This document shows, piece by piece, positions 40,572 through 64,000 of a stretch of DNA of 64,000 nucleotides. The DNA is from Nitrososphaerota archaeon. GTDB taxonomy: Archaea; Thermoproteota; Nitrososphaeria; Nitrososphaerales; Nitrosopumilaceae. The DNA is taken from assembly GCA_021325615.1 (NCBI GenBank), contig JAJPGU010000012.1, forward strand, positions 62,001 through 126,000. Reading direction: 5' to 3'. Each line of letters starts with the position of its first letter. Positions within the stretch are counted from its first letter, which is position 1. The notes under the pieces were generated by a model. The model had not been told where the DNA came from and searched no databases. It saw only the letters and a program-made list of their open reading frames with translations. The translations under genes and the position numbers were made by a program.

Positions 40572-40578
40572 AAAAACT

Positions 40579-41453: not shown

Positions 41454-41496
41454 CTCATGAAAGTTCAACATGGTATTTCTTGTCTTTAGTATTCGG

Positions 41497-42731: not shown

Positions 42732-42737
42732 GTACAA

Positions 42738-43351: not shown

Positions 43352-43579
43352 CCACCAAATTTTTTGTGGCAGATCGCACATTCCCAGTGGTCTTTTATAA
43401 CTATCCCCCTGTGTTCATGTTGTAAGTCTTCTTTGAATATTTTCTTCAACATCTCAGTTGCACAAGAAACTAATTTCGTCATCGAATTATTTATGGTGTG
43501 TGCAACATGTGCATTTGATTGCATGAAATTTCAACATCATATTCAAAAGGGCGAATTTATTACATTGATCAAGATTTCG

Positions 43580-44924: not shown

Positions 44925-45190
44925 TCATTTCCATAGGATTGCTTGTGATCGCCTACATGAATCAACTCGATTACGTGTTTTGGCTGAATGTCTCGATAGA
45001 TTATCCTGTAATTTCGTCCAATGTGATATGAGAATGCACCACCATAGAGATGTGGTTTGTAAACTCCCAGCAATCCGGGATTGTTCGTATTGGCCAATTC
45101 CAAGAGGGCCTGCCTCACCCTGTTTTGTAAATCCGGGCTGAGGTTCTTGAAGCGACTCTTGAATGTATGGTCTATCACAAACTGCCACAT
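44921..45190 (-). CDS. RelE/ParE-superfamily toxin
   Basis: 89 residues. The pattern of FKSRFKNLSPDLQNRVRQAL helices followed by a beta sheet (YHIGRNYRIIYRDIQ, VIELIHVGDHKQSY) is that of RelE/YafQ-type ribosome-dependent mRNA endonucleases, including basic residues and a C-terminal His/Tyr. The start lies 2 bp after the stop of the antitoxin-like gene upstream, the usual antitoxin-first order. Inhibits translation until neutralised; here it may stabilise the element. Confidence 0.88.
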   Translation of the reverse strand: MWQFVIDHTFKSRFKNLSPDLQNRVRQALLELANTNNPGLLGVYKPHLYGGAFSYHIGRNYRIIYRDIQPKHVIELIHVGDHKQSYGND

Positions 45191-45192
45191 CC

Positions 45193-45315
45193 CTACTCCT
45201 CTAAATGCCTTAGCAGCTCGTGTACGCTTGGAAACTTCAAATGCCTCTTCTTAGGGGAATAAAAGTTTTTTATTGCCTCAATCTCAGCTTCTGACAGGTC
45301 ATTTTCTTTCTCCAT
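45193..45315 (-). CDS. Short antitoxin for RelE-like toxin
   Basis: 40 residues from ATG 45315: acidic helix EKENDLSEAEIEAIKNFY, then a basic segment SPKKRHLKFPSVHELLRHLEE. The frame is open upstream, but an A/T-rich TATA-like element at about 45335-45345 supports this leaderless start. It has no DNA-binding domain, so autoregulation by this pair would be incomplete. Identified by position and character, not by family. Confidence 0.65.
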   Translation of the reverse strand: MEKENDLSEAEIEAIKNFYSPKKRHLKFPSVHELLRHLEE

Positions 45316-45463
45316 GCCAGAAACGTCAAGAATAGTAAATATATTTTTGATGGATCTCAAGCTATATGGTGGACGAGAAAATACCAAATCAGTTGATAAC
45401 GCATCAATTCCTATGAAAATCTTTATCCGTCTTTTGATATGATTGTAATGTGAGAACAGTTCC

Positions 45464-47191: not shown

Positions 47192-47208
47192 CTAGCCTAT
47201 CTTGAGAT

Positions 47209-48894: not shown

Positions 48895-49173
48895 AACCTT
48901 CTAATGCAATATCATCCATCAGCGATAACAACTTTTTGATTATTCCTTTAGTTCAGATTGAAACTAGGAATGAAAATATTTTAATTAACAAATCAAACCT
49001 AGAAAAAATGATAAATTTAGAGATAAATTAAATATAGAATAGGATTGTTTTTTGGGCATGTTGCTGAAATTTCATGCAATCAAATACACTTGTTGCACAT
49101 TTCATAAATAATCTGCAGGCCTATTGCATCCTAATGACAATAGATTTAGATCTCTTAAAAACCTGAGGTAAAA
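48895..49173. other. AT-rich intergenic region
   Basis: Long A/T tracts (for example around 48975-49035) and no coding frame. Holds the leftward maeA promoter and the rightward promoter of the zinc-ribbon/USP pair (CTCTTAAAAA at about 49152-49161). Otherwise I see nothing specific. Confidence 0.4.
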
Positions 49174-49347
49174 ATGACTGCGATTCATAAACTTAAAAAT
49201 AAAAAACAGCAAGACAGAAGGCTGGAAGAAGAAAAGATAAGATGTCCCAAATGTGGCAGTAGGAATATACTTACTATAGGTGAAAGAGGTGATAAGACCT
49301 TTTCTTGTCTTGATTGTGATTATACTGAAGGTGTGGGAACGAATTAG
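49174..49347 (+). CDS. 57-residue zinc-ribbon protein
   Basis: A basic, helical N-terminus (KNKKQQDRRLEEEK) followed by a four-Cys ribbon CPKCGSRN...FSCLDCDY with the TFIIS/TFIIB-like spacing. GAGGT lies 5 bp before the ATG. It ends 3 bp before the universal stress protein start, so the two are an operon. Probably a nucleic-acid- or protein-binding accessory factor; function unknown. Confidence 0.72.
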   Translation: MTAIHKLKNKKQQDRRLEEEKIRCPKCGSRNILTIGERGDKTFSCLDCDYTEGVGTN

Positions 49348-49350
49348 CAT

Positions 49351-49788
49351 ATGGAAAGACAACGAATCAAAAAGATACTTGTACCGCTTGATGGTTCCAA
49401 AAATTCCTCAAGAGGCTTGGACAAAGCAATTTATCTTGCAAGACAGTGCGGGGCGACTATAACCGGACTATGCGTTATCCCATTGTACAGCATAAAACTT
49501 GGAAATCCGGGGAGGATATTGACTCCTCTCAGAAACGAGACTGCAAAACAGGCCAAAAAATTCATGGCCGAAGCAAAAAGGGCCGCTGCTCAGAGAGGGA
49601 TCGTATTTAACGAAAAACTGCTCTATGGCAACGGAGCTTGGGAAATTGTAGAGTTTGCAACAAGCAAAAAATTTGACTTGATTGTAATTGGATCAAGAGG
49701 CCTCAATCCAATAAAACAGGCCTTCTTGGGAAGTGTTACAAATGCCGTAGTTCACAGATCAAAGACACCAGTACTTGTTGTAAAATAA
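49351..49788 (+). CDS. Universal stress protein, copy 2
   Basis: 145-residue UspA-fold protein. ATP-binding pattern GSRGLNPIKQAFLGS (G-x2-G-x9-G-S) and N-terminal ILVPLDGSKNS. Closely related to copy 1 at 37730, sharing LARQCGATITGLC and the PVLVVK ending, so the two are probably a duplication within the element lineage. Cotranscribed with the zinc-ribbon gene just upstream. Confidence 0.93.
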   Translation: MERQRIKKILVPLDGSKNSSRGLDKAIYLARQCGATITGLCVIPLYSIKLGNPGRILTPLRNETAKQAKKFMAEAKRAAAQRGIVFNEKLLYGNGAWEIVEFATSKKFDLIVIGSRGLNPIKQAFLGSVTNAVVHRSKTPVLVVK

Positions 49789-49992
49789 GAAAATCTGTTT
49801 TCCTTGAAATAATGAATTATCTGACAAACCTAGAAAGCATTACTTTTCAGGTGCAAACCTGCATTGTGTTGGAAATCCTGTCTGCATACATTGAATTATA
49901 GTCTGGGGCAAAAAGTTTCAAACTGCGGACTCTGGCTTTATGTACTCCATAGGAAGTGGAATTCCTAAAATTGTGCAATTGAAATAACCCTT

Positions 49993-50601
49993 GTGACATG
50001 GAAAAATATGATAGACATGTTCAGTGATCTTTTCAAGGCCGTAGTAGCATTACTTGTGGTAATTGATCCAATTGCTACCGTTCCTGTAATAATTGCATTG
50101 ACAGACAAAATGGAAAAGAAGCAGAGAACGTCGACTTCAAACATAACCATCATAACCGTGGCTGCACTACTCTTTGTTTTTGCCTTTATAGGAAGTACAA
50201 TCTTTTCTACATTTGGAATATCTATATACAGCTTTATGATTGCGGGAGGGATTCTTCTTTTTCTTGTATCAATGGAATTGCTTACACATGGAGAATGGAA
50301 ATTTGGCAGTCAAAATCTCCAAGATGAATCAGGAATTGTTCCACTTGCCTTTCCTCTTCTTGCAGGACCAGGAGCCCTTACTCTGGTGGTTCTTTCTTTT
50401 GAAACCTATGGTATACTCGTAACTGTACTTTCAATCATAATTGTATTAGGTATTACATATGCAATACTTCGTCTAGTGGAACCCATTTATCGACTCTTGG
50501 GAAAAAGAGGTTCGATGATTGTGACCAGAATATTTGCAATTATCATAGCTGCTTTTGCAGTTCAGTTTGTGATTGATGGTGTAAAACAAGTTTTTCATTG
50601 A
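49993..50601 (+). CDS. MarC-family integral membrane protein
   Basis: 202 residues and six predicted membrane helices. VIDPIATVPVIIALT near the start and PLLAGPGALTLVV in the middle are characteristic of the MarC/UPF0056 family (NAAT-like), whose transport substrate is unsettled (small neutral amino acids are proposed for some archaeal members). Start is GTG 49993; ATG 50008 is an alternative. The preceding 200 bp (49789-49992) contain no convincing gene. Confidence 0.88.
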   Translation: MTWKNMIDMFSDLFKAVVALLVVIDPIATVPVIIALTDKMEKKQRTSTSNITIITVAALLFVFAFIGSTIFSTFGISIYSFMIAGGILLFLVSMELLTHGEWKFGSQNLQDESGIVPLAFPLLAGPGALTLVVLSFETYGILVTVLSIIIVLGITYAILRLVEPIYRLLGKRGSMIVTRIFAIIIAAFAVQFVIDGVKQVFH

Positions 50602-50753
50602 AATTAGTCTAGATGAAGAATATGAAGATTTAAGGGACTAGGCGTTACAAGATCAAAAATGTTTGAGAAAAATTCATGCCTATCTCAAATTTATTGCAAA
50701 ACGAGTTGAGAGTACAGTTAAAAATGTATTTGTGTTTACTTCTTAAAAGAACC

Positions 50754-51275
50754 ATGTCTGAGGTATTTGTTGTGGGGCACTCTACAAGGACAGTAGAATT
50801 CTTCATAGATTTACTGAAGGCGCATACAATCGATCTTCTTGTAGATATTAGGACCATCCCAAAGTCAAGGCACAATCCCCAGTTCAATGAGGACAATCTT
50901 GAGAAAGTACTAAAAGAAAACAAGATAGGCTATCTACACATGAAGGGTTTAGGTGGCTTGAGGCATCCAGCTAAAGATTCGGTTAACCTAGGATGGCGTA
51001 ACGCATCGTTTCGTGGTTTTGCAGACTACATGCAAACAAAGGAGTTTGATTTGTCACTTGGAGAGTTGATTGCATTAAGCAGAAAGCATACGGTTGCAAT
51101 CATGTGTGCAGAAGGAAACCCGTTTCGTTGTCACAGGTCGCTCGTAGCAGACGCATTGCTAGTAAGGCATGTTAAAGCGCTTCACATATCAAGCAAGAAA
51201 TCATCTCGTGAACACGTGCTGACACCGTTTGCCAAAGTAAAAGGTCGAAGTATTACCTATCCTGAAGTATCATGA
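50754..51275 (+). CDS. DUF488-family protein
   Basis: 173 residues. VVGHSTRTVEFFIDLLKAH, LLVDIRTIPKSRHNPQF, YLHMKGLGGLR and IMCAEGNPFRCHRSLVADAL are the family motifs; the CAEG...CHR portion suggests a redox- or metal-sensitive site. Function unknown. Translation is coupled to the downstream DNA glycosylase through ATGA (51272-51275), hinting at a nucleic-acid repair or defence link. The frame is open upstream to 50676, but TTAAAAATG (about 50718-50726) as TATA supports ATG 50754. Confidence 0.9.
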   Translation: MSEVFVVGHSTRTVEFFIDLLKAHTIDLLVDIRTIPKSRHNPQFNEDNLEKVLKENKIGYLHMKGLGGLRHPAKDSVNLGWRNASFRGFADYMQTKEFDLSLGELIALSRKHTVAIMCAEGNPFRCHRSLVADALLVRHVKALHISSKKSSREHVLTPFAKVKGRSITYPEVS

Positions 51276-51784
51276 TAAAATACAAGGTATCAAAAGGAAT
51301 GATGATTCTATTTGTTGGCATCAATCCTCACCCTGGCACATATCGACGCGGGGTGCCGTTTTCAAACAACAAGACATTCTGGTACTTGTTAAACAGGACA
51401 GGATTGATCAATGAAAAGGTTTCAGATCTGAGAGATGATATAAAACTCAAGCAGATCTACAACTTCAAGTTTAACAAGATTTACAAATTTGGTCTGCTCA
51501 ATGTTATCAACAGACCTACAATAGATGTGTCAAAATTAAAAAGAGGGGAAGAAAAGATTGGGAGAAAGAAGATTTTAGTCGCAATAAGGATATACAAACC
51601 GCAAGTAGTTTGTTTTGTGGGAAAGATAACATACGAGAAATTCTCGCATCCGAAGAGGTTCAAGTTTGGGCGCCAGGTTGACATCTTTGGATCAAAATCA
51701 TTTGTGATGCATTTCCCACTTCATGGAAAAGCCTCTGTTCGAATTAGTGAACTTCGAAAAGTCATGAAACTATCTCAAAAATGA
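51272..51784 (+). CDS. Uracil/mismatch DNA glycosylase (MUG/TDG-like)
   Basis: 170 residues. The N-terminal active-site strand reads LFVGINPHPGTYRRGVPFSN then FWYLLNRTGLI, matching the family motif GINPG..S...G..F; the C-terminal part has VCFVGKITYEKF and a His-containing motif MHFPLHGKASVR. Removes uracil or thymine from G mismatches in DNA. Catalytic Asn is present in GINP. Coupled to the DUF488 gene by ATGA. A repair enzyme is a reasonable stress cargo. Confidence 0.85.
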   Translation: MIKYKVSKGMMILFVGINPHPGTYRRGVPFSNNKTFWYLLNRTGLINEKVSDLRDDIKLKQIYNFKFNKIYKFGLLNVINRPTIDVSKLKRGEEKIGRKKILVAIRIYKPQVVCFVGKITYEKFSHPKRFKFGRQVDIFGSKSFVMHFPLHGKASVRISELRKVMKLSQK

Positions 51785-51819
51785 CCATTGTTTGATTTTC
51801 ATAAAAAGACGTCATGGCC

Positions 51820-52905
51820 TTACGTAAGGACTTGCTCGGTATCTTTTTCCCCCTTTTCAATCAGTTTTCTTATGGTTTCCGACGAGAAATCAGCGTCCTC
51901 GAAGAGAAAGTGCACGTCCTCTTTTCGCTCTATTCTTGTTATCTTTCTTATCACGGCCCCTTGCTCAAACACAAGCCTCTGGTATTCTTTTTTTATCTCT
52001 TCAAGCTTTGATTTGCTCTTGTCGTCAAGGATACTGTTTTGTAATATGTCATACATCTTTTGCATGAGATCAATGTGATTCTCAGTTCTTTTTGACACCT
52101 CAATTGCCCACTGTGTCTTGTCTGCAAACATGATGTCCCGGGCTCGATGCCACGATTCCATCATGTTCTTTGGTAGATCATCTTGCTCGTGAGGAAAGAG
52201 ATCTGTCACAAAGACATTCTTGTCCTTTTTTGGTGAGGCGTCCATGACTGCAATTAATGGAGTGTTATTGAGTAATGCTCCATCCCAAAAGTATCTACCG
52301 TTTATTTCCGTCCATGCTATTCCGTAGAATGGATAGCCTATGCTTGCAAGTATGTTTTCTATCTGGATGTCGTGACGCCTGCTATCAAATACCACGCGTG
52401 TTCCTTTTTTTATGTCGGTCGAAGTCACAACAAGACGCGGTCTTCCAGATTCCTTTAACTTGCTAAAATCTACGAATTCTCCTAGTGTTTCTTTCAGTGG
52501 GGTAGTGTCATAGAGATACGGGTGATTAAATGAAGAGCCAAATAGCCATGGATTGAACCACATGGCGGTAAAAGCATTTGGGTTTCCATAAAAACTTGAA
52601 TATGCTGAAGACAACATGGACCTAAATTTCTGTGATGGAAATGATGGAATCGGCTTTTCGATTAGAGTAAGCCAGAAATCTTCGAGATCCTTTACCGGGC
52701 TATCATGCTTGCTTGCTGTAATTATTGATGCATTGATTGCACCAATCGATGTACCTGCCACGATATCAAATTTTATACTGCGTTTATGTAGCGCCTTGAA
52801 AACCCCGCACTCGTATGCGCCAAGCGACCCTCCTCCTTGTAACACAAGAACATTTTCAAGACGGGCATCGTCTTTTTTTGATGTAATGACATCCTGAGAT
52901 TTCAA
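51820..52905 (-). CDS. Patatin-like phospholipase
   Basis: 361 residues. Oxyanion GGGSLGAYE, nucleophile GTSIGAIN and the catalytic Asp in WDGALLNNTPL (DGA) make a complete Ser-Asp dyad. Acyl hydrolase acting on lipids, located in the cytoplasm as no signal or anchor is seen. That is odd for an archaeon with ether lipids; substrates could be fatty-acid esters or storage lipids. TTG start in a TTGA overlap (52902-52905) with the NDH-2 stop, so translationally coupled to it. C-terminal 80 residues are a charged coiled coil. Confidence 0.9.
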   Translation of the reverse strand: MKSQDVITSKKDDARLENVLVLQGGGSLGAYECGVFKALHKRSIKFDIVAGTSIGAINASIITASKHDSPVKDLEDFWLTLIEKPIPSFPSQKFRSMLSSAYSSFYGNPNAFTAMWFNPWLFGSSFNHPYLYDTTPLKETLGEFVDFSKLKESGRPRLVVTSTDIKKGTRVVFDSRRHDIQIENILASIGYPFYGIAWTEINGRYFWDGALLNNTPLIAVMDASPKKDKNVFVTDLFPHEQDDLPKNMMESWHRARDIMFADKTQWAIEVSKRTENHIDLMQKMYDILQNSILDDKSKSKLEEIKKEYQRLVFEQGAVIRKITRIERKEDVHFLFEDADFSSETIRKLIEKGEKDTEQVLT

Positions 52906-54302
52906 GTTGTCTCACTTTTAGTTTTAGATTCTGATGACACATTCACGTCGCCTGAAAAAGTCTTTGTTTGCGCCTCTTGGCCTTCCGTAAAGATTTTCAA
53001 TCTAGTAATGTCGGGTTTGAAGAATAAATCAATGAACCAATCTGCCAGTACTCGCAACTTCTTTTCAAAAGTAGGCAGGTGGCTGAGGTAGTAATATCTC
53101 CATATCATCCAGGCAAGCAGACCATGAGTCTTTATGCCAAATAATATTCCGACGCCCTTTCTTTTTCCTATCTGAGCCATTATTCCTCTTGATTTGTAAT
53201 TGAAATTAACCTTGTTTCCACCTCTTACTGCTGATATTAGATTATCTGCCACGACTTTTGCCTGCTCTACCGCGTTTTGGGCGGTAGGCGGGTATGGTCT
53301 TCCAGTATGCTTGTCAGTGATAGACGCGCAGTCCCCAAGTGCATACACGCCATTCATTCCATTGAGTTCAAGAAATTCATTGACCGAGATTCGCCCCCCT
53401 CTGTCATGTTCGCATTGCAACTCTTTGACAATCTTTTCTGGGGTCACACCTCCTGCCCATACTAACGTATGAGTCCCTATGGTGGTACCATCCTTTAGTT
53501 TCATATTTGATGGCGTTGCCGTACTGACTGGACTTTTCAGGATTATCTCTATTCCAGATTCTTTTAGCTTCTGGGTGGCAAATTTTGAAAGGTCATTGCT
53601 TACTTCAGGCAGTATCTCATCCATAGCATCAACAAGAATCACTCGAATATCTTTGATATTGATGTCATGATAAAAGTCCCTGACCGCATCTCTGACTAGC
53701 GCATTCAATTCGCCCACTGTCTCCACACCTGCAAATCCAGCACCGACAACAACAAAGGTCATTAGACTTTTTCTTAATTCCACATCTTGTTCAATACTGG
53801 CTTGCTCTAGCATGTCAATGACGTGATTACGCAGAACAATTGCATCACCAAGACTTTTCATGGTATGCGAGTATTTTTTGACATCTTCCATACCAAAGAA
53901 GTTAGTTTCTCCTCCAAGAGATATTACGAGATGGTCATAATCCAAGACATGGTCATGCCACTTTGTCTGGTCGTTTCCGCTGTCTATTACATTTGCTATT
54001 GTGATCTGCCTCTTTTGAAAATCGACCGATCTTATCGTCGCCTCGTAGAATCTTGCTCTTTTACAAAATGCCCTAATAGGCGTCACTATATGTCTGGTTT
54101 CTATCATACCTGAAGATACCTCTGGCAGCATTGGAGTGAATAGAAAGAAATTGTCCTTGCTTACTATGCTAACATCTACAGTGAAATCATTTTCAAACTT
54201 GCTCTCCAGTCTTCTCAAAACATTGATTCCGCCAAATCCTCCTCCTAAGATGACGATTTTTCTTCGATCCTTTACCTTAATGTTGCCTTGGCTGTCTTTC
54301 AT
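52902..54302 (-). CDS. Type II NADH:quinone oxidoreductase-like flavoprotein, island copy
   Basis: 466 residues, paralog of the core gene at 5941. GGGFGGIN (about 18-25) for FAD, VVVGAGFAGVE (about 178-188) for NADH, VYALGDCASI (about 315-324), and the same C-terminal WRYYYLSHLPTFEKK region. The extra copy would raise capacity to oxidise NADH made by malic enzyme, ALDH and ADH encoded around it. Coupled to patatin downstream by TTGA. Confidence 0.9.
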   Translation of the reverse strand: MKDSQGNIKVKDRRKIVILGGGFGGINVLRRLESKFENDFTVDVSIVSKDNFFLFTPMLPEVSSGMIETRHIVTPIRAFCKRARFYEATIRSVDFQKRQITIANVIDSGNDQTKWHDHVLDYDHLVISLGGETNFFGMEDVKKYSHTMKSLGDAIVLRNHVIDMLEQASIEQDVELRKSLMTFVVVGAGFAGVETVGELNALVRDAVRDFYHDINIKDIRVILVDAMDEILPEVSNDLSKFATQKLKESGIEIILKSPVSTATPSNMKLKDGTTIGTHTLVWAGGVTPEKIVKELQCEHDRGGRISVNEFLELNGMNGVYALGDCASITDKHTGRPYPPTAQNAVEQAKVVADNLISAVRGGNKVNFNYKSRGIMAQIGKRKGVGILFGIKTHGLLAWMIWRYYYLSHLPTFEKKLRVLADWFIDLFFKPDITRLKIFTEGQEAQTKTFSGDVNVSSESKTKSETT

Positions 54303-54447
54303 ACATGAGATCTCAAGTTTTAGCGGTTTAATAACTTGTGAGAATTTGGACGGATACTACATGATGAAAAAACAAAAAATTGCAAATTACTCAGATGCAA
54401 TAGAAAGAAGATAAAAAGTATAATAATGGTGATTCAGCTACAACGTC

Positions 54448-55833
54448 GTGGCAATTAAGACAATTAATCCTGCAACCGAGGAAGTTTTAGCCGAATATGA
54501 GAATATCACAAAGGAAGAACTGGAGAAAAAGACAAAGAGAGCGCAAACCACTTTTTTGGATTGGAAAAAGGACATCAAAAAAAGATCTGATTTCATTCAT
54601 ATTTTTGCCGATGTATTGAGAAAGAACAAACAACAATTGGCACTAGTTGCTACAAAAGAGATGGGAAAGGCAATCAAAGAGTCTCTATCTGAGGTTGAAA
54701 AGTGTGCATGGGTGATGGAGTTTTATGCTGACAACGGGGCGACATTTCTCCACGATGAGTCGATAAACACTGATGCAAGGAAGAGCTTTATTGCATTTGA
54801 ACCACTTGGCGTGATAGGAAGCATCATGCCATGGAATTTTCCATACTGGCAGGCCTTGAGGTTTGCTGCACCATCACTTATGGCTGGCAACGTAGTTGTG
54901 TTAAAACCAGCAAGTGCTACAATGCAGTGTGGGATTGAGATTGAGAATATGTTTCGTAAAGCAGGGATTCCAGACGGGGTATTTCAAACTGCAATTGCGG
55001 ACTCTACAATGGCAGAACAACTAATAGACTATGTTAACGCAGTGACGTTTACTGGAAGCAATGTGGCAGGCTCGAAGGTAGCCCAACGCGCTACCTCCAA
55101 AGTAAAAAAATGCGTCTTGGAGCTTGGAGGCAGCGATCCTTTCATCGTGTGCTCTGATGCAGATGTAGAAAAAGCAGCAAGCGGGGCTGTAAAGGGACGC
55201 TTTATCAACTGCGGTCAGAGCTGTATAGCATCAAAGAGGTTTTTTGTTACAAAAAATCTCGCAAAGGAATTTGTCGAAAAGTTTGTTCAAAAAACTGAAA
55301 AATTGGTTGTAGGTGACCCCACATTGGAATCTACAGACATCGGACCTCTGGTAAATTCAGCAGGTCTTGAAAAGATAGAGGATCTTGTAAAGGACGCTGT
55401 CGACAAGGGAGCGCAAATATTGGCCGGAGGAAAAAGAGTTGGAAGTAAGGGGTATTTTTTCAGCCCTACCATTCTTGGAAATGTGAGCCCCAAGATGCGT
55501 ATAGCACAAGAAGAGGCTTTTGGACCAGTAGCTCCCGTGACAGTTGTGCAAGATGAGGCAGAAGCAATACGTCTTGCAAACGAATCGCAATACGGACTTG
55601 GAGGGAGCATATGGACCCAGGATCTTGACAAGGCAGACAAGATATCAAGAATGATAGAATCGGGCATCATCACGGTGAACAATGTAGTCGTGTCTGACCC
55701 CCGAATACCATTTGGTGGAGTAAAGCAGAGCGGGTTTGGAAGGGAACTCTCTCGATATGGCATGCTAGAGTTTGTCAATATAAAATCAGTAAGATTCTAT
55801 GATCAGCTAGTAGTCAGTCACCATGTAGAATAA
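54448..55833 (+). CDS. Aldehyde dehydrogenase (succinate-semialdehyde type)
   Basis: 461 residues. Catalytic Cys in FINCGQSCIASKR, general base Glu in LELGGSDPFIV, PWNFPYWQALRFAAPSLMAGN, and FGPVAPV as the C-terminal signature. This length and sequence type is the short succinate-semialdehyde/lactaldehyde-like group; substrate cannot be fixed. GTG start at 54448. Divergent from NDH-2. With the downstream alcohol dehydrogenase it could oxidise alcohols to acids. Confidence 0.93.
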   Translation: MAIKTINPATEEVLAEYENITKEELEKKTKRAQTTFLDWKKDIKKRSDFIHIFADVLRKNKQQLALVATKEMGKAIKESLSEVEKCAWVMEFYADNGATFLHDESINTDARKSFIAFEPLGVIGSIMPWNFPYWQALRFAAPSLMAGNVVVLKPASATMQCGIEIENMFRKAGIPDGVFQTAIADSTMAEQLIDYVNAVTFTGSNVAGSKVAQRATSKVKKCVLELGGSDPFIVCSDADVEKAASGAVKGRFINCGQSCIASKRFFVTKNLAKEFVEKFVQKTEKLVVGDPTLESTDIGPLVNSAGLEKIEDLVKDAVDKGAQILAGGKRVGSKGYFFSPTILGNVSPKMRIAQEEAFGPVAPVTVVQDEAEAIRLANESQYGLGGSIWTQDLDKADKISRMIESGIITVNNVVVSDPRIPFGGVKQSGFGRELSRYGMLEFVNIKSVRFYDQLVVSHHVE

Positions 55834-56107
55834 ATTTCAAACATGATAACATTCTGGTGTTGAATGTTGATAGATTTCTCATAATTTTTAGCCATTCATT
55901 TTTTCACATGAAATAATCATACGTGTTTAGGTCGTGCCTGAAATTTGATGCTTCATGTCAAATTTTGTTCCCAAAATGGCACTTCACGTAAACACATACA
56001 AACTATTTTATCCCATATGGATTAATGCTCGCTTATTTTATTTCATACAAAAATGCACTAGTGCAATTAATTGTTACCCTTATATGGTATGATAATCAAC
56101 CAGTGAC
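55834..56107. other. ALDH-ADH intergenic region
   Basis: No coding frame. Contains the palindrome at 56054-56065 and the ADH TATA element (CTTATATGG at about 56080-56088), which is about 24 bp before the ADH ATG, so that mRNA is nearly leaderless. Confidence 0.45.
56054..56065. promoter_or_regulatory. 12-bp palindrome upstream of the ADH promoter
   Basis: TGCACTAGTGCA, perfectly self-complementary, 15 bp upstream of the TATA element. Candidate operator; short enough that chance cannot be excluded. Confidence 0.35.
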
Positions 56108-57160
56108 ATGGAAGCAGCAAGAATTGTCAGAGTAAAAGAACCATTAGAGATACAAACACTCGAGACCCCAAAGCCAAGAGGCTCGCAAGTTTTGATTAAA
56201 GTTCAATCGGCCGGTGTCTGCCACAGTGACATACATTTGTGGGAAGGTGGTTACGAGGGTCTGGCAGGTCAATTTATGAAGACTACTGACAGGGGCGTAA
56301 AATATCCACTCACTCCTGGTCATGAAGTGGCTGGAATAGTTGATTCCATGGGTGAGGATGTGGAGGGGTTTGTCAAAGATGAGAAAGTTCTTGTTTTCCC
56401 ATGGATAGGAGAGGGTCTCTGCCCCGCCTGCAGAATCGGAGAAGAAAATCTTTGTGACAAGCCAAGATCTTTGGGGGTATACCATGATGGTGGTTACGCT
56501 GAATACTTGCTTGTCCCAAGTTACAAATATCTTGTAAGACTTGGTGACATGGACACTGACACTGGAGCACCGTTGTCATGTGCTGCACTTACAGCCTATG
56601 GTGCCGTGAAAAACACGCACCTAAAACCTAACGATAATGTTGTTATTGTGGGGACAGGCGGCCTCGGTCTGATGGCAATCCAGCTTGCAAAAGCAGTGAC
56701 AGGAGCGAGAATAATTGCAATGGATATTGATGATGAAAAATTAAAAATCGCAAAACAAAATGGAGCAGATTTTACTGTAAATTCAAAAAATCAAGACGCG
56801 ACAAAATCCATAATGGAACTGACAGATAATCTTGGAGCTGACGCTGTCATAGATTTTGTCAATGCCAGCAAAACGGTCGAAACAGATATGCAAATACTTC
56901 GAAGAAGGGCAAGAGTCGTGCTTGTAGGACTCTTTGGAGGTGCATTACAACTAAACTTGGTATCAATGCCTACAAGAGCATACAAAATAATTGGTTCCTA
57001 TACAGGTTCGTTGACCGACATGATTGAACTAGTCTCCCTCACCAAAAGAGGAATAATCAAACCAGTAGTCTCAAATAGATTCAAGCTAAGTGAGGCAACA
57101 ACAGCACTGACAATGCTAAAAGAAGGCAAAATTACAGGAAGGGGAATAATCAACCCTTAA
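56108..57160 (+). CDS. Zinc-dependent alcohol dehydrogenase (medium-chain)
   Basis: 350 residues. Catalytic zinc ligands Cys38 (GVCHSD), His72-Glu73 (PGHEVAG) and Cys near 160; structural zinc by Glu102, Cys105, Cys108 and Cys116 (GEGLCPAC, ENLC), with Glu replacing the first Cys just as in Sulfolobus ADH. NAD-binding VGTGGLGLMAIQLA (about 180-193) with Asp after beta2 favouring NAD. Oxidises primary or secondary alcohols; works with the ALDH upstream. Confidence 0.94.
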   Translation: MEAARIVRVKEPLEIQTLETPKPRGSQVLIKVQSAGVCHSDIHLWEGGYEGLAGQFMKTTDRGVKYPLTPGHEVAGIVDSMGEDVEGFVKDEKVLVFPWIGEGLCPACRIGEENLCDKPRSLGVYHDGGYAEYLLVPSYKYLVRLGDMDTDTGAPLSCAALTAYGAVKNTHLKPNDNVVIVGTGGLGLMAIQLAKAVTGARIIAMDIDDEKLKIAKQNGADFTVNSKNQDATKSIMELTDNLGADAVIDFVNASKTVETDMQILRRRARVVLVGLFGGALQLNLVSMPTRAYKIIGSYTGSLTDMIELVSLTKRGIIKPVVSNRFKLSEATTALTMLKEGKITGRGIINP

Positions 57161-57180
57161 TTCCACTTTTTGATTTACTC

Positions 57181-57624
57181 ATGGATTATTTAGAACTCGT
57201 TATAGTTGGTATCCTTACCTGCATACTTGCAATCTCTTTATGGCAATTTTCAACAGTAAAAAAAGAGATGCGCATTCAGACTGAGCAGCAGATCTATGCA
57301 AGGATAATCGAGGCAAGACTTAACCTTGAAAAGACTGAAACTTTTACAAAAATGGCAAAAGAAAGCCCCGTGTTTGCCGAACGTTTTTCTTTAGTAGATA
57401 ATACTGACGAGTATTATACGGCCGTGGCGTTTCTTGATTTGTTTGAATTTCTGTACCTCATGAATAAAGCAAAAACGATAGAAATTAGCATATGGTTGCG
57501 ATGGCAAGAACTAACAAAAACAATGATGACTATACCTAAATTTAAGAAAGTTTGGGAAAAAACAAAACAGGCACACATGAAAGACTTTGTTGATTTTCTT
57601 GACTCTACAACAAGAGAAAGATGA
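57181..57624 (+). CDS. N-terminally membrane-anchored helical protein
   Basis: 147 residues: one transmembrane helix (about 5-24, LVIVGILTCILAISLWQF), then a cytoplasmic, almost entirely helical region with repeated Lys/Glu (YARIIEARLNLEKTETFTKM, FLDLFEFLYLMNKAKTIEI). Architecture resembles DUF4760-like proteins; no catalytic motif. Starts 20 bp after the ADH stop and may be cotranscribed. Confidence 0.68.
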   Translation: MDYLELVIVGILTCILAISLWQFSTVKKEMRIQTEQQIYARIIEARLNLEKTETFTKMAKESPVFAERFSLVDNTDEYYTAVAFLDLFEFLYLMNKAKTIEISIWLRWQELTKTMMTIPKFKKVWEKTKQAHMKDFVDFLDSTTRER

Positions 57625-57658
57625 ATAATGGAAATCATGGTGTTTATTTATACAAAAT

Positions 57659-57841
57659 ATGCGTCAAGCCAAATTATTGACTATCATAGATCTCATTGAA
57701 GAAGAAATTAAGATACTTGTAGCAATATTGCAGTTTTCTATTACCGCATGCCCATTAGATAGTGTCAGCCAAGATGTTGAGATTGATTCTGAAAAGCTTG
57801 AAAGGTTGATCTCAAAATTACAAAAAGAGTCAGAACCCTAA
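57659..57841 (+). CDS. 60-residue helical protein
   Basis: Two predicted helices (LLTIIDLIEEEIKILVAIL and DSEKLERLISKLQKE) with a central Cys. The ATG is 34 bp after the preceding gene and no promoter is obvious, so likely in that operon. No family is recognised; coding potential is modest. Confidence 0.42.
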   Translation: MRQAKLLTIIDLIEEEIKILVAILQFSITACPLDSVSQDVEIDSEKLERLISKLQKESEP

Positions 57842-57856
57842 GATCACGCGACATCA

Positions 57857-57949
57857 TCACGTGACTGACTTCCTATTACTTTGTTCATATCTACTTTCGT
57901 ATTGCCTTTTTCTCTCGTAGTGTTTGAGTTTTTTCAGATGATCATTCAA
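57857..57949 (-). CDS. 30-residue charged peptide in a TTGA overlap
   Basis: TTG at 57949 overlaps the CDGSH stop as TTGA (57946-57949). The frame reads MNDHLKKLKHYERKRQ... for 30 residues, strongly Lys/Arg/Glu-rich and helical. The same overlap type is used by clear genes in the island, which is the main support. May be a chance frame. Confidence 0.3.
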   Translation of the reverse strand: MNDHLKKLKHYERKRQYESRYEQSNRKSVT

Positions 57950-58170
57950 CTGAAATTCTTGTATGTTTCATCTGACTGTTTGATTTCTATGCCGTTCCCT
58001 TCTTTGGTATACATGTAAAGTCTACCTGCTTCTTCTCCAGATGTTTTTTTGTGTGAGCCATCGCAATATGGTTGATTTTTGCTCAAACCGCACATGCAGA
58101 TCCACTTGGATTCATTTCCTACTTTGATCTCCATTGGTCCAGTAGCATCTTTTCTTACTAATCTTGCCAT
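57946..58170 (-). CDS. CDGSH iron-sulfur domain protein
   Basis: 74 residues with one complete CDGSH motif: Cys25-x-Cys27-x2-Ser30-x3-Pro34-x-Cys36-Asp-Gly-Ser-His40. Binds a redox- and pH-labile [2Fe-2S] cluster by three Cys and one His; such small single-motif proteins act in electron transfer or cluster donation. No membrane anchor. Fits the oxidative-stress cargo of the element. Confidence 0.95.
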   Translation of the reverse strand: MARLVRKDATGPMEIKVGNESKWICMCGLSKNQPYCDGSHKKTSGEEAGRLYMYTKEGNGIEIKQSDETYKNFS

Positions 58171-58306
58171 TTCTATGACTTTGCAATATAAGCAACTTGG
58201 ATAAAAATTGAATGATGATTCTTAGAAGTTATTACAATCCTATTTCTATCATGTGGTGCTTAAATACAAATTTAACAATGAAGTTCTGTCCGATTGTAGA
58301 AGGAGG

Positions 58307-59950
58307 CTAGGAATTTTTTCCTAGTCTTTCTTTTTTTATTACCTTTGGTATGAATTGTTTTATCCTATCTTCTAATTCTCTTGCATGCCACTGGATATCA
58401 TTACGCTTTTTTAGAATAAAAAATCCGGTAACTGGTCCAGCAATTACTAGCATCAGATATGTGAAATCTTGCCTGTAGACTGCAGTTACAAAGAGATTGT
58501 CTTTTGCAACAAAACTTGTGTCGTTTGTCTTGGAATCAAATGGGAGATCGTTTCCTTCCCAGTGGTCAAAGACTTGGCGTACAAGAAATGAGAGCTGCCA
58601 TTTGTCTGGCGCATGCAGTGTTACTATTGTGCCATATGGATATTGCCCACCTCCGTCTGCGTTTGTTGCATTGATCTGTATCATGTGGTAATAGTTTGCT
58701 TGGATCCTTGAATCATCTGCAAGAAATAGATCTATCTTTCCGCTTGTGAACTTTTGGCCAGAAATGTCCACGTAATCTAGAGCATAGTTTTTGCCGGTCT
58801 CGTTAAACTGTAGAGGTACCTCGATGTGTGCAAGCCCTGCGTTTGCTGTCTGGTCAAATGGAATGCTTCCACTAAGGGTTTGGTTGTGAATTGATATGAT
58901 AGGTATAACATAAAGATCTGAACCGTAATTTCCTGTAGCTGAAAATGTGATCTCGATTATCTTTTTTGCAATGAAGTGAAGCGTATCAGTTATTGGCCTA
59001 AAACCATCCTTGTTTGCAAATATCGTAACATCAAACTCTCCTTCCCTGCTAGGCAATACAGAATATTGACTTGGTCCTTGCTGCGTTACTTGAAACGGAG
59101 ACTGGAAGCTGTAACTTGCATTCTCGATATCCGATGTGATACCAAACAGATTTTGTTTTCCTACCTTGACTACAGTATTGTTTGCATCGATGGTAACATG
59201 CATTGTATTGTAAAATGATTCGACTGGTTCCATTACAACTCCGTTTGGCGATAACATTGCTATGGTTTCATTGCCCTCGGTCGATATGGTCAGATACTTG
59301 CCTGAGGGCTCAAGTATCACACCTCCAACAGCTGACAGCTCTTCTGCCGTATCAAGTTGTAGCGGCACCCCAAATGAATTGGTCTTGTATACCACAAATG
59401 GAAATTTCTCACCAACATGTACTTTTGATGGAAGGTCAAACTCTACACTTGTTGCGGTATCCTCAGGAATGAAAGAAGAACTAGTTGGAGGAAGACCTGC
59501 AATGGATGCCGATATCTCTGTCTTCTGAGATATATCTCCTGAAAGGATAAGATTGGTTGAGTCAAACTGGACTTTGCCTGGAATGTCCTTTATTGTACTC
59601 TTGATTGTAACGTCGGGAGGTTCTGCAAATACAGTTGATGGTTCCACCATTGCACCGGAACCATCATAGATGTACATTATTCCAATATCCTGTGCAATTC
59701 CAGATCTTGCCGGCAGAGGCGTTATTCCAATGTGATATGAATCGTGGCATCTTGGCATGATACTAATCTGCGCGGATCCTTGTATCTTACCTGGTCCTGA
59801 TGCGGTAACGGTGTAATTTCCCATCCCGCCTGCGCCAATATCAAACTGGACCGAGCTTGCAAGGCCATCGTCCTGGTTTGTCCCTGGAATGTGCTCTGGA
59901 ACCATCTCTAGTTCCTTTGGATACTTGAGGTCCAAGCTATCCGATGACAC
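58307..59950 (-). CDS. Extracellular multi-domain protein with C-terminal anchor, N-terminus missing
   Basis: 547 residues of beta-rich domains with many N-x-S/T sites, a C-terminal transmembrane helix (about 500-520, YLMLVIAGPVTGFFIL) and a basic cytoplasmic tail, so the body should lie outside the cell. Yet there is no signal peptide: the frame starts abruptly with GTG 59950, an in-frame TAA lies about 20 bp upstream, and the right attachment site is only 98 bp away. It is therefore probably the 3' remainder of a longer gene cut by the element boundary. The stop codon lies in a hairpin CTAGGAA-TTTT-TTCCTAG (58307-58324). Confidence 0.7.
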   Translation of the reverse strand: MSSDSLDLKYPKELEMVPEHIPGTNQDDGLASSVQFDIGAGGMGNYTVTASGPGKIQGSAQISIMPRCHDSYHIGITPLPARSGIAQDIGIMYIYDGSGAMVEPSTVFAEPPDVTIKSTIKDIPGKVQFDSTNLILSGDISQKTEISASIAGLPPTSSSFIPEDTATSVEFDLPSKVHVGEKFPFVVYKTNSFGVPLQLDTAEELSAVGGVILEPSGKYLTISTEGNETIAMLSPNGVVMEPVESFYNTMHVTIDANNTVVKVGKQNLFGITSDIENASYSFQSPFQVTQQGPSQYSVLPSREGEFDVTIFANKDGFRPITDTLHFIAKKIIEITFSATGNYGSDLYVIPIISIHNQTLSGSIPFDQTANAGLAHIEVPLQFNETGKNYALDYVDISGQKFTSGKIDLFLADDSRIQANYYHMIQINATNADGGGQYPYGTIVTLHAPDKWQLSFLVRQVFDHWEGNDLPFDSKTNDTSFVAKDNLFVTAVYRQDFTYLMLVIAGPVTGFFILKKRNDIQWHARELEDRIKQFIPKVIKKERLGKNS

Positions 59951-60047
59951 TCCAACAATGGAACCGTCTTACCAAAGACTTACATTCTACAATGTGATAT
60001 GGGGATCAGAGCCAAACAAATCCCAGAAACGTACCGCTATCGGCACG

Positions 60048-60080
60048 GATTCCTTCCGATCCATGGATTTTTTATTTTTG
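60048..60080. repeat. attR copy 1 (tRNA-Val 3' end plus T-rich flank)
   Basis: GATTCCTTCCGATCCAT followed by GGATTTTTTATTTTTG. Shares the exact 13-mer CCTTCCGATCCAT with the tRNA (60052-60064) and matches 27 of 33 bases with copy 2 at 60576-60608. Confidence 0.78.
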
Positions 60081-60088
60081 TTGCGAAA

Positions 60089-60304
60089 TCAGGCTTTCTT
60101 CAAAAACTCTTCTCTATTAATTCCACAATCTCTAAGAATTACGCCCAGTAGACCCACCCTAATTTCTTTCATGGGGACGGTAACGTAGGTTGATCCATTT
60201 GTTAATGTTACATGGCTACCTTTTTGTCTTATTGCAATAAACCCAAATTTGTTACAAAGAATCTTGACCAGATCTTTTCCTTCTATTGGCCTAAATTTGT
60301 TCAA
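60089..60304 (-). CDS. hicA: HicA-family mRNA interferase toxin
   Basis: 71 residues. The dsRBD-like HicA fold is clear: PIEGKDLVKILCNKFGFIAIRQKGSHVTL, with the catalytic His in KGSHV, then VTVPMKEIRVGLLGVILRDCGI. Cleaves mRNA unless bound by HicB. TTG start overlapping the HicB stop (TTGA, 60301-60304), so antitoxin and toxin are coupled. Lies between the two right-hand att copies. Confidence 0.92.
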   Translation of the reverse strand: MNKFRPIEGKDLVKILCNKFGFIAIRQKGSHVTLTNGSTYVTVPMKEIRVGLLGVILRDCGINREEFLKKA

Positions 60305-60495
60305 ATTGTAATTGCTTCTGTGGCCTTTTCTTTGAGTACTGACAGGTGAAGATTAAGTGCCTTTAGGTAATTTTTCTTGGCATCCTTCATGTTTTTGCCA
60401 TTGCTATACACTCCTAATGCAGAACATGCTATGGAATAAGAGCCATCATCCTCTTTGATTACCCTAGCTTTGACATCTTTTACCTTGACAGACAT
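60301..60495 (-). CDS. hicB: HicB-family antitoxin
   Basis: 64 residues with the degraded RNase H-like HicB fold (ARVIKEDDGSYSIACSALGVYSNGKNMKDA, then KKNYLKALNLHLSVL). No C-terminal HTH/RHH extension, so DNA binding would need another partner. First gene of the pair, upstream of hicA. Confidence 0.9.
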   Translation of the reverse strand: MSVKVKDVKARVIKEDDGSYSIACSALGVYSNGKNMKDAKKNYLKALNLHLSVLKEKATEAITI

Positions 60496-60575
60496 GTATT
60501 GTTCAATAACATTGTTAATTATTTAAGTTTCGATTCATGGCGTACTGGATCCTAAACTAGAATGCCACAGTATCT

Positions 60576-60608
60576 AATCCCTTCCAATCCATGTGTTTTT
60601 TATTCTTG
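60576..60608. repeat. attR-like copy 2
   Basis: AATCCCTTCCAATCCAT plus GTGTTTTTTATTCTTG. 16 of 17 match to the tRNA 3' end. With copy 1 it brackets the hicBA cassette in direct orientation. Confidence 0.72.
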
Positions 60609-60870
60609 ATTAAATTCAAATTCTACCTTTAAAATACAGTAACTTGTTAGATGATATCATTTCTAATTTCAAAGACGCCTGGACACTACCAAATGAGTAT
60701 TACAAATCTTGGTTCGGTTCCTTCTAAAGTGAATCCATGTTGCCAAATCTTTATCATTCGAAATTTCCGTAAGACATGTAGAGTTACCGATTCTGAAAAT
60801 CGACCGATATGGGCACGGTTCCTTTCCGTTGTCTCATTTCCAGAAATGATAATCATTCATCATTCTAATA
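60609..60870. other. Non-coding boundary region with degenerate att-like sequence
   Basis: No credible gene. ACCGATATGGGCACGGTTCCTTTCCG at 60803-60828 resembles the stretch leading into attR copy 1 (ACCGCTATCGGCACGGATTCCTTCCG at 60033-60058), so further old recombination scars are likely here. Confidence 0.4.
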
Positions 60871-61953
60871 TTGCAGATAGCGGATTTTCATGTATTGGAT
60901 ACGGAAGCAGTCCTTTATGAAAGGTTGCCAAACGACAAGGTAAGATGTCTGGCATGTGGGAGATATTGCGAGATTGGAAGGGACCAGGTAGGCCTGTGTG
61001 GAATTCGCGGAAACAAAGATGGAAAGCTCGCCCTATACGTATACGGGAAGGTTGCCGCATGTCATGTCGATCCGATAGAAAAAAAGCCCGTTACTCATTA
61101 TAGGCCAGGATCACGCATATTTTCCATAGGTACAACAGGTTGTAACTTTCTATGCAAGTTTTGCCAAAATTACGACCTGAGCCAACGAAGAAAAATCGAG
61201 GGGGAGGATATATCGCCAGAACGGGTCGTTGACCTTGCCTTGCATTACAAAACGCAGGGAATTGCTTATACTTACAACGAGCCCAGTATTTTTTTGGAAT
61301 ATGCAAGGGATTGCGGGGTTCTTGCAAGGAAAAAAGGCCTATTCAACGTCTTCGTATCCAATGGATATGGGACGCCGCAGGCCGTTAAGATGATGAACGA
61401 GTTTCTTGATTGCATCACTGTTGATTTCAAAGGTAATGGGGAGCAGAGGTTCGTAAGACAATATATTGGAATACCAAGCTCACAATGGGTCTTTGACACG
61501 TTAATAGAACTACATGACAAGACAAACATACATGTGGAAATCACAGATCTCATAGTTCCTAAGGTTGGTGACGATCTTGAACATGCCGAAAAGCTATGCA
61601 AGTTCATTTTTGACCTTTTTGGACCTGAGATGCCTGTTCATTTTTTAAGGTTTTTTCCACACTACAAAATGATGGAATTTCCGGAAACTCCTATTCTAAC
61701 ACTTGTAAAGCACCATGCAATAGCAAAGAAGGTTGGATTGAAATATGCTTACATTGGAAACGTGCCAGGGCACCCCCTTGAGAACACATATTGTCCAGAA
61801 TGCAACAAGGTAGTAATACATCGGTTCAACTTTGACATATTGCGATGGGACCTCGATGATAATAACAGATGCAAGAATTGCGGAAACAAAATTCCAATTG
61901 TAGGAAAACTCGATAAAGGTTACAAAGAAAAACGATTCGAGTTCGTGCTTTAG
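60871..61953 (+). CDS. Radical SAM enzyme of the AmmeMemoRadiSam / PflA-like family
   Basis: 360 residues. Radical SAM Cys91-x3-Cys95-x2-Cys98 (TTGCNFLCKFCQN), preceded by an N-terminal CLACGRYC...GLCG cluster-like motif and followed by a C-terminal CPEC...CKNC zinc ribbon, the layout of the enzyme that accompanies Memo and AMMECR1 proteins. Substrate unknown; possibly a protein or tRNA modification. TTG start at 60871 is the only candidate near the N-terminus besides TTG 60895. Its partners are not adjacent in this window. Confidence 0.88.
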   Translation: MQIADFHVLDTEAVLYERLPNDKVRCLACGRYCEIGRDQVGLCGIRGNKDGKLALYVYGKVAACHVDPIEKKPVTHYRPGSRIFSIGTTGCNFLCKFCQNYDLSQRRKIEGEDISPERVVDLALHYKTQGIAYTYNEPSIFLEYARDCGVLARKKGLFNVFVSNGYGTPQAVKMMNEFLDCITVDFKGNGEQRFVRQYIGIPSSQWVFDTLIELHDKTNIHVEITDLIVPKVGDDLEHAEKLCKFIFDLFGPEMPVHFLRFFPHYKMMEFPETPILTLVKHHAIAKKVGLKYAYIGNVPGHPLENTYCPECNKVVIHRFNFDILRWDLDDNNRCKNCGNKIPIVGKLDKGYKEKRFEFVL

Positions 61954-61958
61954 AGGAC

Positions 61959-63161
61959 CTATGCCACCAAAGCTCTGCCAGACATCAGATACTTGCAGAA
62001 GTCGTCTATTTTAGACAAGTTTTCTTCAATGATGTTGTTTATTTGAGGTACTTGGATTGACTCTTTTTTTGTGACTGGCTGGACCACTATTGCCTTTGGT
62101 TGGTTCATCGGTTGACCTATGGCACTATACATCCAAATGAACACTTCGTCAAGGTCTGGAACCTGTCTGTATATCTCATCCGCCATCTTAAAACAGAGCA
62201 TATTGTAGATCTTTCCAATATGGCTGACGGCGTTTTTACCTGCAATCGCCTCAGAACCGGAAGGCCTGCTCAGGGAAATCAACTGATTAGCGCGATTTCC
62301 CCTCCCTACCTGGCCAGAGTCGGAGCTGTCGGCAGAGGTTCCAAGGACAGTGAGGTAAAGGCCGCCGAGACCCCTGTTTTTCTTGTCAAGATTATTTAGG
62401 ATTATCTTAGGATCTGGAAACTTGCCCAGTTTCTTGTGGAATTCACTTGTTGCTTGAATCATCTCGTCCTTTCTTTCAAAGTATTTTTGTTCAGAAGAAA
62501 CGTGCATGTCAACAAACGCCATGGCAATCGTAATTTCAAGAGATTTTCCGTTTCTAAAGCCCATCACCTTGATGTCTTCGCCCGATTCATTAAACTCGGA
62601 CTTGAACTCCTTGGAATTGAGGTATCTTTCCGTCTGGAGTACTGCATCCTCGGTGTCTGTCAAGGGCGCATATCCGACCAGAGCGGATGTATCGTTTGCG
62701 CCAATCTCTTCCGGTCTGCCAAAGATGGACCTAAGCTCAGGTGATGCCTGGCCTATTTCTAGCTGGTATTGTATGTGCTCCTCTTTTAGATACCTTAGAT
62801 GCTTCTCAAACCATGAATTGGCAGTTCTTGTAACGATATCCTCGATTTGCTCTTTAGGTAAGTTTTGACCAAATGTCGCCCTGTCGCCAACCACAAGCTT
62901 TAGTGGTTTTGTTATTCTCCCCCCGCCGAATCTATTCTCACTCTGGCCTGCAACAAGTAGTGCCTTGTCCATGTTGTGGTGTTGGACCGTGCCAGTTTTT
63001 TGCAAGTACAATTGTGATAGAGAAACCTCAATTTCCTCTACGACCAGGTCGCATATGGTGTCTGGGTGACCCAAACCCTTTCGTTCAACAATCTCAAACC
63101 TTTTGTTAAAAGTGGGCGTATCGAGAGATAATTCCACAAACATTTTAGATTTTTGATTCAT
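61959..63161 (-). CDS. metK: S-adenosylmethionine synthetase, archaeal type
   Basis: 400 residues of the archaeal MAT family, unrelated in sequence detail to bacterial MetK. N-terminal VERKGLGHPDTICD, QHHNMDKALLVAGQSENRFGGGR and later GRGNRANQLISLSRPSGSEA are family signatures. Makes SAM from methionine and ATP for the methyltransferases and radical SAM enzymes, including the convergent neighbour (5 bp between stops). Clear chromosomal core gene marking the end of the island. Confidence 0.97.
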   Translation of the reverse strand: MNQKSKMFVELSLDTPTFNKRFEIVERKGLGHPDTICDLVVEEIEVSLSQLYLQKTGTVQHHNMDKALLVAGQSENRFGGGRITKPLKLVVGDRATFGQNLPKEQIEDIVTRTANSWFEKHLRYLKEEHIQYQLEIGQASPELRSIFGRPEEIGANDTSALVGYAPLTDTEDAVLQTERYLNSKEFKSEFNESGEDIKVMGFRNGKSLEITIAMAFVDMHVSSEQKYFERKDEMIQATSEFHKKLGKFPDPKIILNNLDKKNRGLGGLYLTVLGTSADSSDSGQVGRGNRANQLISLSRPSGSEAIAGKNAVSHIGKIYNMLCFKMADEIYRQVPDLDEVFIWMYSAIGQPMNQPKAIVVQPVTKKESIQVPQINNIIEENLSKIDDFCKYLMSGRALVA

Positions 63162-63460
63162 GGATGTGGTGCTTCGTCCTGCGTCACATGATAGGTTTGC
63201 AAGTTTTTGCTCATTCCAATCCTGCAGAATTTTTTGAATGTCAGAACTATCACAGAAAAATTAATCAATAATGTCATAAAAATCATCAATCACATTATCA
63301 AAGATGGTAATCTGGCCGATCCCTAGTCCGTGCCAAGTACGTCATTTCCAACTATGATAATCTGAATCCTATCAAAATATCCGCCAAATGGAGGAGTGAC
63401 CTAAATTCAAGGTTGAAAATCGACATTTATCTTAAAAATTAGGAAGGGCCATGGGAAGTC

Positions 63461-64000
63461 ATGGTGGAGTCGGCCGATAGCCTCGCATACCTGAGGAAGG
63501 AGCACGAAATCATCCAAATGGTATCTGGTATGATGAAGGCTGTTTCAGTCAGGTTGGCAGCCGGAGATGCAGTGTCGCCTTCTGACCTTGACAAGATGAT
63601 GACAGTCCTTGAAAATATGGACAAGTGCCACCGCGTGGAAGAAGACCAAGTCCTGTTTCAACTTAAGGTACGAAGCCATAACTTTGATGGGCCAATCCGA
63701 TCCCTTCTGGCAGAACACGACAGTGCGCGACAAATCTTCAAGAATCTTAAGACCGAGCTGGACAAGTGGAAGGCTGACAAGAAATCGACACAACTCCTCA
63801 TAAAGTATATCCAAGATTATGCAGCTTCACTGGGGGAGCACGTAAGAAAGGAAGAAGAGGTGTTCAAATCCAAGGATGTAGGCCTCCTCACGGAAGAAGA
63901 CCACAGGAACATAGTGGACCGATTCAAAAAAGTAGAGGCAAACGTTCTTGGAACACAAACCAAGGGAAAGATGATTTCCACAATAATTGAGCTTCAAAAC
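63461..64000 (+). CDS. Hemerythrin HHE-domain protein, cut by the right edge
   Basis: 180 codons visible, still open at base 64000. Di-iron ligand helices: LRKEHEIIQMV, CHRVEEDQVLF, LLAEHDSARQIF, LGEHVRKEEEVF. Binds O2/NO or iron, or acts as a redox sensor; additional C-terminal sequence beyond the domain suggests a longer protein, perhaps with a PAS or second HHE domain. ATG 63461 follows a TATA-like ATCTTAAAAATT (about 63429-63440). Core relative of the island hemerythrin at 44484. Confidence 0.88.
   Translation, partial: MVESADSLAYLRKEHEIIQMVSGMMKAVSVRLAAGDAVSPSDLDKMMTVLENMDKCHRVEEDQVLFQLKVRSHNFDGPIRSLLAEHDSARQIFKNLKTELDKWKADKKSTQLLIKYIQDYAASLGEHVRKEEEVFKSKDVGLLTEEDHRNIVDRFKKVEANVLGTQTKGKMISTIIELQN

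Follow-up and report, generated by a model that had tools for sequence, protein, structure and literature searches.

A half-kilobase hicBA toxin-antitoxin cassette, probably a separate and earlier insertion beside an integrase-bearing island at an archaeal tRNA-Val gene

Toxin-antitoxin genes hicA and hicB, bracketed by two degenerate copies of a tRNA-Val(CAC) 3' end, form a 0.53-kb cassette in a Nitrososphaerota archaeon of the family Nitrosopumilaceae. Here, we report an analysis of this cassette within a 64,000-nucleotide stretch of contig JAJPGU010000012.1 (assembly GCA_021325615.1, positions 62,001 to 126,000), referred to below as the window, whose coordinates are used throughout. The reading that we favor, and hold to be rather more probable than its competitors together, is that the tRNA-Val gene served as a repeated attachment site, at which the hicBA cassette would have arrived first and an integrase island second, the cassette having been moved in trans. 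The features that define the site and the cassette are as follows.

30301..30375, plus strand: tRNA-Val(CAC), the attachment target (ARAGORN; 3' end matches)
30357-30375: attL core, the last 19 nt of tRNA-Val(CAC)
60046..60064, plus strand: tRNA-Val 3' end, left copy (17/19 identical), within the repeat at 60049-60080
60065..60592, minus strand: hicBA cassette with its attR (0.53 kb), bracketed by repeats, with homologous cassettes at other targets
60089..60304, minus strand: hicA, HicA-family toxin (71 aa; PF07927; GSH motif present)
60301..60495, minus strand: hicB, antitoxin (64 aa; family profile match), overlapping hicA
60515..60527, minus strand: TTAATTATTTAAG, A+T-rich, 5' of hicB, kept in most related cassettes (from the flanks of related loci)
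60573..60592, plus strand: tRNA-Val 3' end, right copy (18/20 identical), within the repeat at 60577-60608

The direct repeats (60049-60080 and 60577-60608) are 32 bp long with 27 identical positions and lie 528 bp apart, start to start. An earlier reading of the sequence only had described two such repeats with the tRNA-Val 3' end around hicBA (27/33 identical), and this description was confirmed apart from the length. Both repeats open with a degenerate copy of the tRNA-Val(CAC) 3' end and continue into a common T-rich stretch. Across 98 kb (the 64-kb window and the adjoining contig sequence on its right), the left and right copies were the top non-self matches to the 23-nt tRNA-Val 3' end (19/23 each, against 17 for the runner-up), and no match of 19/23 or better arose in 300 second-order Markov simulations of 44.7 kb. 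The alignment score of the repeat pair (39) was reached by none of 200 shuffles and by 1.3% of 3,000 random control intervals. Both repeats are tRNA-derived, beyond chance. It is very improbable that they are chance matches or common transcription terminators instead of attachment sites; T-runs do follow the tRNA-like part in both, as in terminators, and equally good repeats occur in that 1.3% of random intervals, but the two best tRNA-end matches in 98 kb, where none was expected, and independent cases with empty sites at other RNA genes (below) speak against it.

Only hicA and hicB, both intact, lie between the repeats, with no integrase or transfer genes, so that related att sites flank a unit without recombination genes inside, as in cis-mobilizable elements. 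The G+C content of the cassette is 35.8% (60065-60573). HicA matched the Pfam HicA_toxin family (PF07927; E value, 1.2e-11; 45 bits; cut-off, 27) and is a predicted RNase. A Pfam search with HicB returned no match; its relatives within the family are 69 to 84% identical, and the family profile matched solved HicB antitoxins weakly (6g1c; E value, 0.012). The pair thus combines a HicA-family toxin domain with an adjacent HicB, the latter by a weak profile match, as in HicAB systems. PADLOC and NCBIfam searches gave no matches for either protein, and no virus-borne relative of hicBA was found in IMG/VR. The position and retention of TTAATTATTTAAG point to a probable promoter/operator.

To the left of the cassette lies an integrase-bearing island of 29.7 kb and to its right a second acquired block, with the following features.

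30376..60064, unstranded: island; integrase gene beside the tRNA, left repeat read as attR (absent from empty sites; G+C content)
30372..30387, plus strand: candidate recombinase-binding motif at the left end, abutting the tRNA (14/16 to CCGTGCCGATANCGGT)
30415..31716, plus strand: tyrosine recombinase (integrase) of the island, 433 aa (weak profile matches; homologues)
30519..30534, plus strand: candidate recombinase-binding motif at the left end, in the 5' part of the integrase gene (16/16 to CCGTGCCGATANCGGT)
60033..60048, minus strand: CCGTGCCGATANCGGT motif, inverted, abutting the left repeat (16/16)
60593..64000, continuing to ~75,040 beyond the window, unstranded: second acquired block (between tRNA-Val and the gene next to it in relatives)
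60803..60828, minus strand: motif (15/16) with a degenerate att-like sequence, aligning to 60033-60058

The extent of the inserted DNA was set by comparison with relatives, to which the side with the threonyl-tRNA synthetase and tRNA-Val genes is syntenic. Four relatives in the same genus (G005, G018, G019, and G029) have an empty tRNA-Val site, lacking the island and carrying a 65-aa membrane-protein gene within about 50 bp after tRNA-Val. The same gene lies at C30:137077 in the window genome (window coordinate 75,077), 44.7 kb from tRNA-Val, and alignment to relatives restarts there. The nonsyntenic block therefore measures ~44.7 kb (30,376 to ~75,040), both repeats are internal to it, and at tRNA-Val an empty-site counterpart exists for the combined insertion only. 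The G+C content is 50.2% left of the island, 41.7% in the island, and 45.2% in the right block. The earlier placement of the repeats at the right end of the island thus held in part: the left repeat fits the island attR, but foreign DNA runs about 14.4 kb further to the right of the hicBA cassette. An island end at 60.6 kb was rejected on the basis of the conserved downstream gene. A radical-SAM gene at 60871 was rejected as a conserved chromosomal flank; it has a second genomic copy (C24), and in relatives its closest homologues lie in other contexts. A search of the far end of the 44.7-kb block for an att copy of the tRNA end found none, and the flank right of the right copy, which would predate the cassette, matches no relative.

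Other inserts occur at the tRNA-Val gene in four relatives (G017, G020, G030, and G034), and in a fifth, G026, a clean 12.6-kb element carries the core ATCCCTTCCGATCCA at each end and is followed by the ancestral flank; by these comparisons, tRNA-Val is an insertion hotspot. The integrase of the window island gave weak matches to Pfam Phage_integrase (E value, 9.2e-4, below the curated cut-off) and to an NCBIfam XerA-type/integron-integrase model (E value, 7.9e-6, below the cut-off), and its homologues adjoin tRNA genes in relatives.

Several further observations concern the content of the two blocks. A pair of DUF488-like and uracil-glycosylase-like genes is present as two paralogous copies, at 50676-51784 in the island and at 70181-71205 in the right block (L076 10682-11706), and ferredoxin and Usp genes likewise occur in both; the island and the right-hand block may share an origin. 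The island also contains a 63-nt inverted repeat (84% complementary) at 43486-43548 and 49050-49112, 5.5 kb apart. Homologues of the radical-SAM gene (window 60871-61953), at G000:C24:62446-63243 and in G006, G007, G016, and G022, are single open frames of ~660 to 710 aa, interrupted near residue 86 by some 350 additional residues, possibly an intein.

Which repeat belongs to which element is indicated by the 16-bp motif CCGTGCCGATANCGGT, which is direct at 30372 and 30519 and inverted at 60033 and 60803. Three of these four sites are the strongest in 98 kb; the copy at 30372 ties with one at 26305 on CCGTGCCGATANCGGT and is the best in 98 kb (11/12) on the palindrome ACCGATATCGGT, the palindromic half of CCGTGCCGATANCGGT. 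We infer that the integrase binds this motif. If the island were joined into a circle, the left copy would be flanked by inverted motifs, as an island attP should be; the right copy has no such motif. Because the inverted motif stands at the left copy and none at the right, the best reading takes the left copy as attR of the 29.7-kb island, which also bounds the cassette on the left, and assigns the right copy to a separate, earlier-inserted hicBA cassette as its attR. The motif and att-like sequence at 60803-60828 are possibly a relic of a further, decayed attR.

This arrangement bears on the role of the toxin-antitoxin pair. The sequence-only reading held that hicBA, placed between the repeats, would punish loss of the boundary. 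That argument is weak, and a toxin guarding the island is not supported: since hicBA lies outside 30376-60064, ordinary excision at the left repeat would leave it behind, and its removal would require recombination at the right repeat. Probably, hicBA makes its own loss costly. Toxin-antitoxin pairs often stabilize mobile elements and hicBA adjoins the island, so hicBA could be a terminal stabilizing module of the present island, with the two copies as alternative attR sites; with the inverted motif paired with the left copy only, which puts hicBA outside the element, and with homologous cassettes occurring in the absence of any island, we regard this as improbable.

HicA and HicB searches identified ~33 related loci, nearly all in the same taxonomic order and one in a Woesearchaeota metagenome-assembled genome (MAG). 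No relative in the genus was found to carry the cassette alone at tRNA-Val, the arrangement for which a search had been proposed, but two species, G035 ("Candidatus Nitrosotalea devanaterra") and G028, carry it alone at another gene. In both, hicBA directly follows tRNA-Arg(TCG), convergent as in the window, and a second copy of the tRNA-Arg(TCG) end closes the cassette at a spacing of 594 and 609 bp, respectively. Empty tRNA-Arg(TCG) sites with the same flank and the same gene directly after occur in G025, G015, G010, G031, G032, G033, and others, and comparison with them shows a precise insertion of this homologous cassette. The G028 and G035 loci are orthologous (88% identical across the whole 1.8 kb).

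Further cassettes are found at other targets. The bracketing repeats in two other species, G273 and G347, match the 3' end of tRNA-Arg(GCG), and these two cassettes are 89.8% identical over 557 bp, the alignment ending at the repeat on both sides and the flanks being unrelated. In G030, a 71-bp repeat around hicBA matches the end of a conserved RNA-like sequence, and the end of this RNA-like gene occurs without the cassette in relatives; an Rfam search with this target gave no match. The RNA-like sequence itself (L244 1501-1652 and L245 to L250) is ~100 to 150 nt long, has a T-run at its end, and is present in seven species of the genus. The repeats in G162 resemble a tRNA end, with no tRNA on the stretch examined, G006 has hicBA with a broken hicA after tRNA-Ser(GGA), and the Woesearchaeota locus (L239) has a bracketing repeat too, with copies ~860 bp apart. 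At different RNA genes, bracketed hicBA recurs alone with a repeat spacing of 528 to 624 bp. Its orientation relative to the target is convergent at tRNA-Val and tRNA-Arg(TCG) and codirectional in G030 and G162. Such a difference would not be expected of a single site-specific mechanism, and the mechanism may therefore not be uniform.

Bracketing repeats scoring at least 39 were present at 6 of the ~33 hicBA loci, compared with 1.3% of the 3,000 random intervals; because the controls were unmatched for position or G+C content and G028 and G035 are orthologous, this excess is indicative, not exact. At two of the six loci (G153 and G102), the repeats recur in arrays, and about two-thirds of the related hicBA loci have no detectable bracketing repeat. 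Judged by simple criteria of motif and length, HicB had an intact frame at 30/33 loci and HicA at 22/33, as expected if toxins decay first, which suggests that toxin loss precedes antitoxin loss. Loci with a frameshifted or truncated hicA and an open hicB include L161, L173, L179, and L166.

Of the two explanations previously offered for the paired repeats, a second small tandem element at this tRNA or an older attR preserved beside a newer one, the first is better supported, since hicBA cassettes of this kind occur alone at another tRNA in some relatives and others have empty sites; the earlier interpretation as a whole is partly supported. In the history that we propose, a 0.53-kb cassette (promoter, hicB, hicA, and one att site) would first have entered the tRNA-Val 3' end, giving the order tRNA, hicBA, right copy. 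The 29.7-kb integrase island would later have entered the restored tRNA and displaced the cassette, the order then being tRNA, island, left copy, hicBA, right copy. As the cassette has no recombinase gene, and in view of its targets, a tyrosine recombinase of another element would have acted in trans. HicA, as a putative RNase, and HicB, as its putative antitoxin, would make loss of the cassette costly, and not loss of the island. Cassette first and island second would be the most economical history, needing no further assumptions.

Another origin, which we consider unlikely, would make the cassette a remnant, the right-hand part of a larger and older island that lost its integrase end by deletion; hicBA would then be the last cargo before the attR of that older island (the right copy), with the newer island inserted next to it. 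Deletion and accretion are a known origin of cis-mobilizable elements (PMC3146451), and nearby relics (the degenerate att-like site at 60803-60828 and the 14.4-kb block without a far att copy) would suit it; random deletions, however, would give varied sizes and contents, whereas hicBA recurs alone at 528 to 624 bp at different RNA genes, in different contexts, and with homology that ends at the repeats.

Larger arrangements of end copies were also detected. On one contig (L281; G273:C23), region 951-9280 contains five tRNA-Arg(GCG) 3'-end-like copies in one orientation, separating another hicBA pair unlike that of the window, two genes for large secreted/TPR (surface) proteins, the hicBA of the window family, and a caspase-TPR gene. 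Elsewhere (L275 to L278 in G153, L279 in G167, and L283 in G102), a repeat of about 40 bp, CCCCGGCGGAGGCGCAATGAACCCTTATGCATGG, is present in ~37 copies that all point the same way within a contig and lie 0.5 to 3 kb apart, with hicBA among the intervening units; these are integron-like arrays whose repeats are not recognizably attC. A first reading of the G153 and G102 repeats as tRNA ends was dropped, and they could be assigned to no gene. The array contigs, which are fragments, gave no full-length recombinase match with queries that did not include IntI. A tentative, somewhat doubtful extension is that Nitrososphaerales exchange small cassettes in an integron-like manner between tRNA/RNA 3'-end copies, with a recombinase acting in trans; hicBA would be prominent among them, and surface-protein and caspase-TPR genes would, just as tentatively, be cassettes as well. 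The window would then be a minimal one-cassette case, and G273 contig 23 and the G153 arrays larger ones.

If the favored history of cassette first and island second is right, one toxin-antitoxin operon and an att site suffice as a mobile unit, near the smallest integrative element that could be expected, and chromosomal toxin-antitoxin pairs beside tRNA genes would be explained. It would also offer a testable system for integrase-less DNA movement in archaea, with defined junctions, empty sites, and the complete genome of "Ca. Nitrosotalea devanaterra." A caution follows for annotation: taking the first att copy as the boundary of an island can misplace that boundary.

Among known systems, the type II toxin-antitoxin HicAB shares with this pair a HicA domain with the GSH histidine context and, by profile, a HicB-type antitoxin; the toxin gene is typically first (PMC11594946), whereas here hicB precedes hicA and encodes a short protein (64 aa). 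In integrons and CALINs, those of archaea included (PMC9668308), small and often toxin-antitoxin cassettes are likewise arrayed between repeated sites and mobilizable in trans; unlike them, the repeats here are tRNA/RNA 3'-end copies with a T-run and not attC (judged by eye), and the hicBA cassette has its own probable promoter. A survey of integrated elements in Thaumarchaeota describes five classes (proviruses, casposons, integrative-conjugative elements, cryptic integrated elements, and IS-like transposons), with tRNA 3' ends as the main targets, short att repeats (median, 17 bp), and tandem integration (PMC6563490); the targets, the short repeats, and the tandem arrangement agree with ours, and HicA is absent from its main text. 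No report of a recurrent half-kilobase hicBA unit of this kind was found in the open-access literature searched. The ssrA islands of Dehalococcoides, which combine tandem accretion with integrase-less islands delimited by RNA-gene ends (PMC3146451), are similar in having tandem elements at one RNA gene, degenerate 3'-end copies between them, and some elements without integration genes. Those are multigene islands at one target, whereas here one 0.5-kb toxin-antitoxin operon is found at several RNA genes in an archaeal order. From its sequence, the hicBA cassette resembles cis-mobilizable elements and the products of tandem accretion but appears unusually small and recurrent.
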